A DNA stretch of 32,329 nt from Halorhabdus amylolytica (GTDB taxonomy: Archaea; Halobacteriota; Halobacteria; Halobacteriales; Haloarculaceae). The position numbers and the translations under genes were made by a program. The DNA lies in contig NZ_SPQG01000013.1 in the NCBI RefSeq assembly GCF_004944975.1, positions 1 to 32,329 on the forward strand, given 5' to 3'. The stretch's first letter is position 1. Each line of letters begins with the position of its first letter. The notes beneath the pieces were generated by a model. It worked only from the letters and a program-made list of their open reading frames with translations, had not been told where the DNA came from and made no database searches. Shown piece after piece: positions 10,988 through 12,777 of this stretch.

Positions 10988-11719
10988 CTAGACCAACCGA
11001 GCGAACGTCAGATACCCGGTGTGACCCACGCCCGCAGTCGAGGGGCGCGACCCGCGGTCGTCGAAGTCCATCTCGCGCTGGATGGTCTCGAGGGTCTCGA
11101 TCTCCGAGAGCCCGACCTCGCGTGCCGTCTCGACAACTGCCTTCGAACTCTCGACGAACGGCGAGTAGACGGCGAGAAAACCGCCATCAGCGAGCAGATC
11201 GGGCGCGTGCTCGACCAGTGCGGCCGCGTCGGCGGTATCCAGCGTCAGCACGTCGAAGGGGTCCTCGTCACGGAGTTCCTCGGCGTGCTCGGTCGCGTCG
11301 CCGGTCCGGACGTCGACGGCCTCGGAGACACCCGCGAGCGCCATGTTCTCCCGGGCGACATCGGCGAAGTCGTCGTCCTGTTCGTAGGTCACGACCGACG
11401 CACCCATCCGCCCCACGTACGCGGCGAGGACACCCGTCCCCGTCCCCACGTCGAGGAGCCGATCGCCGTCGGCGACGCCGGTGTGGCCGACGATCAGGCC
11501 CACATCACGGGGCATCATCGGCGCGCCGGTGCGCTCGAAGTGCTCGAAGAGGTCCGGACCACGCAGCGCTCGCACCTCGAAGGCGGTGCCGAGATGGGTC
11601 TCCAGCGTGTCCCCCGGCTGGGCATCCTCGGGCACTTCCAGAACACCCAGATCGGTCTCCAGGGTTTCGCCGCGTTCGCGAAGGTACTCTCGGCCCTCCC
11701 CGACGAGCAGGACGCTCAC
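10988..11719 (-). CDS. trmI: tRNA (adenine-N1)-methyltransferase TrmI
   Basis: Methylates N1 of adenine in the T-loop of tRNAs (A57/A58) using S-adenosylmethionine. 243 residues with a GTG start that overlaps the nac stop by 4 bases. The N-terminal small beta domain (about 1-65) is followed by the SAM-binding Rossmann fold: [17 protein letters not shown] (motif I, near 87-103), [18 protein letters not shown], then [11 protein letters not shown]. The segment [19 protein letters not shown] matches the archaeal TrmI family (usually QxxxPKD). Length is normal for the family. Translational coupling to nac is implied by the GTGA overlap. Confidence 0.92.
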
Positions 11720-12114
11720 TCGAGGCTGGCGACCGCGGCGGCGAGGTCGCCGTCAGTCTCTTCGAGGGCTTGGCGGGCGGTCTCCTCGTCGACGCCCGCG
11801 CGCTGGGCGACGATGTCGACGTCCGCCTGTGGGATCTCCGCGTCCGCAGCACTCGACTCGGCGTCGCCCCCGGCGTCACTTTCACCGTCGCCGTCCCCAC
11901 CCCGCTCGCGGGTTGCAGGTTCGCCGACGATCTGGTAGGTCTGTTGCCCCTGAGCGTCCATGCGCTGGACCTCGGCGTCGTCGAAGACAAGTTCTTCCTC
12001 GGGGGTTTTGATGACGACCTCCTCGGCGTCGATGTCCTCTAGGTCGATCCCCATCTGTTCCATCATCTGCTTCATTTTCCGCGGATTGAGTCCGCCGCCG
12101 CCTCCTCCAAACAT
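11716..12114 (-). CDS. nac: Nascent polypeptide-associated complex protein (NAC alpha)
   Basis: Ribosome-associated chaperone that binds emerging polypeptides as a homodimer in archaea. 132 residues. The Gly-rich start ([22 protein letters not shown]) and the following NAC domain ([22 protein letters not shown], then QTYQIVGEP) are diagnostic. A long acidic linker with Gly, Asp, Ser and Ala (about 70-92) leads to a C-terminal UBA domain ([18 protein letters not shown] onward). trmI follows with a 4-base overlap. A TATA box and a group of 30-bp repeats lie immediately upstream of the start. Confidence 0.96.
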
Positions 12115-12134
12115 ATCCCTCCGTGGGCAACGCG

Positions 12135-12143
12135 CAATAAAAA
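12135..12143 (-). promoter_or_regulatory. TATA box of nac-trmI
   Basis: The minus strand reads CTTTTTATTG, about 21-30 bases upstream of the nac ATG at 12114. The nearest 30-bp repeat ends 1-2 bases from this box, where the TFB recognition element would sit. Confidence 0.55.
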
Positions 12144-12144
12144 G

Positions 12145-12234
12145 CCTGGCGACGTACTGACGACGGTTCGTCCGCCTGGCGACGTACTGACGATAGTTCG
12201 TCTGCCTGGCGACGTATCGACGACGGTTCGTCCG
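12145..12234. repeat. Three tandem 30-bp repeats upstream of nac
   Basis: Copies at 12145-12174, 12175-12204 and 12205-12234. The consensus begins CCTGGCGACGTACTGACGAC and continues GGTTCGTCCG. Copy 2 differs at 3 positions (A and T in the second half and T near the end), and copy 3 has TC in place of CT in the middle. A fourth, 27-base partial copy sits at 12272-12298. No coding function is likely, although the period of 30 keeps reading frames open and creates repetitive artificial proteins. Confidence 0.85.
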
Positions 12235-12271
12235 TCACATGGTCCTTGGTCGGCGAGGGTACGGCGAAGAA

Positions 12272-12298
12272 GGCGACGTATTGACGACGGTTCGTCCG
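12272..12298. repeat. Fourth, separated copy of the 30-bp repeat
   Basis: GGCGACGTATTGACGACGGT followed by TCGTCCG matches the tandem copies over 27 bases with one or two changes. Both this copy and tandem copy 3 are followed by TCAC, so the repeat unit there extends to at least 31 bases. It is 18 bases from the end of the PUA protein gene. Confidence 0.75.
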
Positions 12299-12315
12299 TC
12301 ACCTGCCCCTCGTGT

Positions 12316-12777
12316 CTACACTTTAGCCCCTTCACGGACCGCCACGGCCATCCCGGTTCCGAAATCCGCCATCGCGCTCGCCGGAAGTTCCGCTCGCCCG
12401 ACGCCAAGCAGCGTGTCGTCCTCACGGACAATCACCACCTCGTCGCCCTCGCGGATCGACGGATCGGCGTCGCGAACAAACTTCGCAAAGGCGTTGCGCC
12501 CGTCCCGGACGAACGGATCGCTCTCCTCGCCGACGACGACCCGATAACCCGGCGGCGACAGCGCGGCCTGAAGCCGCCGACCGCCGGCGAGTCCGAGCGT
12601 GAACCGGCCGTCCTGTCCGAACGTGACGATCCGTCCGTCGGGGCCGTGAACCTGTCGCGGACGACCTGACTTCGATCGTGTGATCGACAACTCTTCGGGG
12701 TCGGCGAACAACGCCGGACCGGCACCGGCGCCGAACTGGTAGGTCCCGATCCGTTCGAGGCGACGCCATTCGTCCAT
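12316..12777 (-). CDS. PUA-domain RNA-binding protein (arcTGT C-terminal-like)
   Basis: 153 residues from the ATG at 12777 (MDEWRRLERIGTYQFGAGAGPALF). The first half (YQFGAGAGPALF, RSKSGRPRQVHGPDGRIVTF, DGRFTLGLAGGRRL) resembles the C2 domain of archaeal tRNA-guanine transglycosylase (arcTGT). The second half is a PUA domain: YRVVVGEESDPFVRDGRNAF, then DPSIREGDEVVIV and LLGVGRAELPASAM. A stand-alone protein of this type is likely to bind structured RNA such as tRNA or rRNA. It lacks the catalytic barrel, so it is not itself a transglycosylase. It is upstream of nac on the same strand, separated by the repeat cluster. Confidence 0.85.
   Translation of the reverse strand: MDEWRRLERIGTYQFGAGAGPALFADPEELSITRSKSGRPRQVHGPDGRIVTFGQDGRFTLGLAGGRRLQAALSPPGYRVVVGEESDPFVRDGRNAFAKFVRDADPSIREGDEVVIVREDDTLLGVGRAELPASAMADFGTGMAVAVREGAKV

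Follow-up and report, generated by a model that had tools for sequence, protein, structure and literature searches.

The cluster of 30-bp repeats that Halorhabdus amylolytica carries between its PUA-domain gene and its nac-trmI operon is probably an ordinary, species-specific minisatellite, which most likely arose by near-neutral duplication. The window, that is the whole 32,329-nt stretch of DNA that was analysed, is part of contig 5 of a 3.46 Mb genome available as a 26-contig draft, and the array, the nac promoter and the three neighbouring genes are on its minus strand. The neighbouring genes named in the preliminary description were recovered by domain search. The nac gene (11716..12114) encodes a nascent polypeptide-associated complex protein with NAC (PF01849) and UBA domains and overlaps by 4 nt with a trmI-like tRNA methyltransferase gene (GCD14; 10988..11719). 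Upstream of and co-oriented with nac is a gene for a protein with TGT_C2 and PUA domains (12316..12777), which was also supported by a frame check and which precedes nac in all seven Halorhabdus genomes; in the locus comparison no gene start was found for one of 30 loci (L035). The 201-nt spacer between the PUA gene and nac (12115-12315) contains the array.

Three head-to-tail copies of a 30-bp unit and a fourth, detached copy had been proposed, and this arrangement was confirmed. TRF places 3.0 copies of a 30-bp unit at 12144-12234, with 86% matches and a score of 147, and no other tandem array in the window is as strong. A repeat search of the window gives copy starts at 12148, 12178, 12208 and 12272 (spacings of 30, 30 and 64), and a 27-base consensus searched with at most 3 mismatches has four matches in the window, all of them array copies, compared with a mean of 0.00 and a largest count of 0 in 100 window shuffles. 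When the unit was searched for elsewhere in the genome, as had been suggested, matches were again obtained at the four array places only. Copy 1 (12144..12173), identified by TRF, the repeat search and congener comparison, is proximal to the promoter. Based on TRF and the consensus search, copy 2 (12174..12203) is the most diverged, with 3 mismatches in 27, and copy 3 (12204..12234) has 1 mismatch in 27. Copy 3 is followed by an outer flank (12235..12247), a 24-nt filler (12248..12271) and copy 4 (12272..12298; repeat and consensus searches), which is without the AGGC end. Head-to-tail copies of a unit of approximately 10-100 bp, as found here, are characteristic of a minisatellite; a CRISPR array is ruled out by the contiguity of copies 1-3, between which there are no unique spacers of uniform length.

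In the orientation of nac, the 3' end of every tandem unit is ACGTCGCCAGGC. The unit is made up of 18 bp of non-conserved DNA and the 12 bp that immediately precede the TATA box, and its end, ACGTCGCC(AGGC), corresponds to the upstream half of the nac core promoter. In copy 1, these last 12 bp are located at 12144-12155, and the AGGC abuts TTTTTATT directly, in line with the earlier proposal that the last tandem copy ends where the TFB recognition element is expected. In leaderless genes the TATA box is usually located about 22-30 nt before the start, and a TTWT motif at this distance is found at the last copy only. The nac TATA box TTTTTATT (12136..12143) precedes the nac ATG by 22-29 nt and lies directly between the array and nac; its assignment is based on the sequence, on a TTTTnAT that is kept in 7/7 Halorhabdus genomes and on motifs given in a published study (PMC4983044). 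According to that study, haloarchaeal promoters have a TTWT TATA motif and a CGAAA BRE, and transcripts are mostly leaderless; by these motifs, nac transcription would start at or next to the ATG, and the transcript would be leaderless or nearly so. The last copy thus resembles a haloarchaeal core promoter in ending at the TATA box at a distance that fits a leaderless gene, but differs from it in that the published BRE motif CGAAA is absent there, the sequence being GCCAGGC in 7/7 Halorhabdus genomes, and in that a TATA box is missing from the extra copies. As no TATA box is found in the sequence behind copies 2-4, these copies, which carry only DNA from upstream of the TATA box, should not be promoters alone. 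By eye, the bases preceding the TATA box of nac are alike across haloarchaeal genera and differ from the published CGAAA BRE, examples being TCGCCACGCTTTT in Halobellus, GTCGCTACGCTTTT in Haloarcula, GTCGCCAGGCTTTT in Halorhabdus and TCGTCAGTCTTTT in others (L037-L116); this comparison omits 6 of 80 loci without a motif-found nac start (L078, L092, L095, L099, L106 and L107).

The comparison with relatives places the origin of the array in one species. Among 146 family genomes, the 27-base unit pattern is present in its own genome and in none of the 145 others, and the unit is absent from 6/6 Halorhabdus congeners. Absence of the repeat from all relatives, combined with no effect on nac transcription, had been named in the preliminary description as an outcome that would refute a functional role, and the comparative part of this outcome is observed. 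Only the 12 bp adjoining the TATA box are a conserved portion of the unit, and the 18-bp distal part is not conserved in the congeners. The final 63 nt before the nac ATG align without gaps in the seven Halorhabdus genomes and include 16 consecutive invariant columns, ACGTCGCCAGGCTTTT; the promoter box together with TTTT is invariant in 7/7 genomes, and each of the six congeners has a single copy of the box at the orthologous site. When collapsed to one copy, the H. amylolytica spacer is 77 nt long, compared with 63, 63, 66, 71, 74 and 78 nt in the congeners, and the collapsed spacer aligns better than 500/500 shuffles against each of the six. The excess of 124 nt equals 30+30+64. The single box copy in the congeners, the length of the collapsed spacer and this arithmetic together argue for a species-specific local duplication. 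Of the two interpretations initially considered for the copies, the minisatellite is supported, since the array is restricted to one species, is local and belongs to a class that is common in the genome, and the binding sites are unsupported, the unit being absent from the relatives searched and from other promoters.

We propose that the ancestor had a spacer of approximately 63-78 nt between PUA and nac with one core promoter, the arrangement that the six congeners still have. In the H. amylolytica lineage, two tandem duplications probably followed of a 30-bp stretch whose edge coincides exactly with the TATA box, and a further duplication of 64 nt, with 24 nt of filler, probably produced the detached copy 4; replication slippage or short-homology repair are the presumed routes. 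Copies 3 and 4 have much of about 13 nt of outer flank in common in the 64-nt register (12235-12247 and 12299-12311), and these partly common flanks appear to be the trace of the 64-nt duplication. The original box and TATA box are intact beside nac and most likely still its sole driver, and the net effect would be a PUA-nac spacer lengthened by 124 nt of probably near-neutral DNA. It had also been noted that the sequence between the repeats has lost similarity, as if the array were decaying or expanding. A decayed repeat was not borne out, as the 37 nt that separate copies 4 and 3 resemble neither a decayed unit (p = 0.33) nor a decayed duplicate of the promoter-to-ATG segment (p = 0.67) beyond chance, and their alignment to the congeners is not above shuffles (p 0.26-0.96). 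For the 24 nt at 12248-12271, no second match with at most 3 mismatches was found in the seven Halorhabdus genomes.

Three observations count against this minisatellite reading or against its complete neutrality. The unit edge falls exactly at the TATA box, so that conserved promoter sequence has been duplicated. Five of the 27 columns vary among the copies, so the array is not of very recent origin and has been retained. Finally, TACGTCGCC is invariant across all four copies, which is a weak point against complete neutrality, since the chance that five variable columns all miss these 9 of 27 positions is approximately 0.1 (computed by hand).

It is possible, although we consider it rather doubtful, that the array is one outcome of an increased rate at which short tandem duplications arise between genes in the lineage, which would be compatible with a minisatellite. 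The nac array is one of a class of short intergenic arrays in this genome. Arrays with a TRF score of at least 60, a period of at least 12 and less than 60% overlap with crudely called genes were counted in the window and 14 + 15 further stretches of H. amylolytica and in 300 kb from each of five congeners (G001 was left out). This gave 15 non-coding arrays for H. amylolytica (612 kb, of which 78.8 kb are non-coding) versus 8 for the congeners (1.5 Mb, of which 180.4 kb are non-coding), an excess per non-coding base with a binomial p of 0.0006, which has to be read knowing that the non-coding cut-off was loosened mid-count from <50% to <60% (the first own sample rising from 5 to 6), that the own stretches were contiguous or contig ends and not random, that the own genome is a draft and that some arrays may be coding or tRNA-related. 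A count of 14 versus 8, the same numbers as without the window array, gives p = 0.0013, and for arrays with at least 85% matches the numbers are 10 versus 7 (p = 0.014). Among the congeners, however, the counts vary (G004 0, G005 1, G006 3, G003 4, G002 0), so that G003 alone has 4 arrays in 300 kb. The units of the own-genome arrays look mutually unrelated, and several of these arrays are located just upstream of genes or directly behind stop codons. In the stretches L133-L146 and L177-L191, the units are mostly 20-37 bp, examples being L180:8418-8523, L185:11414-11475, L188:19303-19348, L135:4777-4833 and L144:12198-12246. In addition, on contig 1 of H. amylolytica, L182:219-480 contains diverged 115-bp repeats with tRNA-like fragments beside an apparent tRNA gene (by eye), and in congener G006, L203:11927-13417 contains a 297-bp unit in five copies with 98% matches, which is outside called genes and perhaps part of a long repetitive protein.

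Arrays with a TRF score of at least 80 within 300 nt upstream of nac were found in 6 rows from 5 genomes among 110 nac-upstream stretches, in which some genomes are represented twice (L006, the own locus; L034, which equals L066; L048; L075; and L106). The units in the five genomes are unrelated, and an array upstream of nac as a common feature was rejected. The arrays of the four other haloarchaea are short and may be coding or non-coding.

A further reading, which we regard as unlikely, is that the extra copies are additional activator or repressor sites built on the ACGTCGCCAGGC box, whose expansion would tune nac-trmI expression. As in regulator-site arrays (operators or upstream activating sequences), the copies are placed beside the BRE; the box itself lies at a BRE or upstream-activator position and is invariant in 7/7 species, and three of the six places in the genome that match it exactly fall in the array. 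However, arrays of this kind would be expected to be conserved, to recur at other promoters and to have a known regulator, none of which applies to the nac array. More than one copy of the unit occurs in no congener, only the core-promoter part of the unit is conserved in the Halorhabdus genomes, and a genome search places the unit at no other promoter. The preliminary description had proposed binding sites for a regulator, and the absence of the repeat from relatives and from other promoters of its own genome leaves this proposal unsupported; a regulator array was therefore rejected as the main reading, although a regulator dedicated to nac would be compatible with a unit found only at nac. 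The dyad GACGA-N4-TCGTC, with arms of 5 bp, is present in each copy and its arms do not vary, but it is missing from the congeners and, as roughly estimated by hand, no more than chance would give in GC-rich DNA, and it was rejected as an operator.

The box was also searched for in the seven Halorhabdus genomes. With TTTTNAT it has exactly one perfect match per genome, always at nac. For ACGTCGCCAGGCTTTTNAT, each genome gives a single exact match, located at nac; with 3 mismatches this pattern has 9 matches in the seven genomes, versus 11 for a reversed-pattern control. As this is no more than the control, there is no visible regulon. Two congener stretches provided orthologs, from either or both, for 17 window genes. 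For the eight genes with all three sequences, the longest invariant upstream runs were 20, 20, 17, 16 (nac), 11, 9, 8 and 5, where both runs of 20 come from a single pair of divergent genes and some upstream regions are coding. Since runs of 17-20 bases occur upstream of other genes in the region, the run of 16 at nac is unexceptional and ordinary for a core promoter. Unexceptional conservation together with the lack of a visible regulon means that the conserved box is best read as core promoter, that is as TATA box and TFB-contact side. A combined reading, in which a nac-dedicated factor, or TFB, would bind the pre-TATA element and the fourfold copies would act as a copy-number rheostat of the nac operon in a lineage with a raised duplication rate, seems to us very improbable.

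It is also very improbable that the array acts at the RNA level, with repeated hairpins in PUA read-through transcripts ending or stabilizing the upstream message: the PUA gene and nac are co-oriented and each copy could form a 5-bp hairpin, but the spacer RNA (z = -1.37) and single copies (z = -0.75 to 0.61) do not fold clearly better than shuffles, Rfam returns no family at gathering score, the hairpins of copies 2-4 have no following U-tract and the congeners have no array, and with neither folding nor Rfam giving support an RNA element was rejected.

The nac array, interpreted as a minisatellite, resembles prokaryotic minisatellites, intergenic VNTRs and short tandem duplications, for which a survey of Archaea and Bacteria is available (PMC6749651), in its few head-to-tail copies of a unit in the 20-100 bp range and its patchy distribution between related species; it is unlike them in that it abuts a TATA box and its unit carries part of a core promoter. 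The survey, which includes 142 archaeal genomes, describes satellites in Archaea as known but sparse, and the short-repeat satellites of Halobacteria as apparently mostly parts of genes. Among the indel classes listed when Haloquadratum walsbyi strains were compared are changes in the number of short tandem repeat copies (PMC3119063). The array was not found among the matches listed for Halorhabdus tandem repeats and haloarchaeal NAC promoters, which is no proof of its absence from the literature.

As found, the array matters little. Its value is that of an example, a traceable duplication of the upstream edge of an archaeal promoter that left the core promoter undisturbed. If it were true that the extra copies alter nac expression, they would represent a natural rheostat beside an archaeal core promoter. 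The more general lead is that one Halorhabdus genome may be unusually rich in short intergenic duplications.
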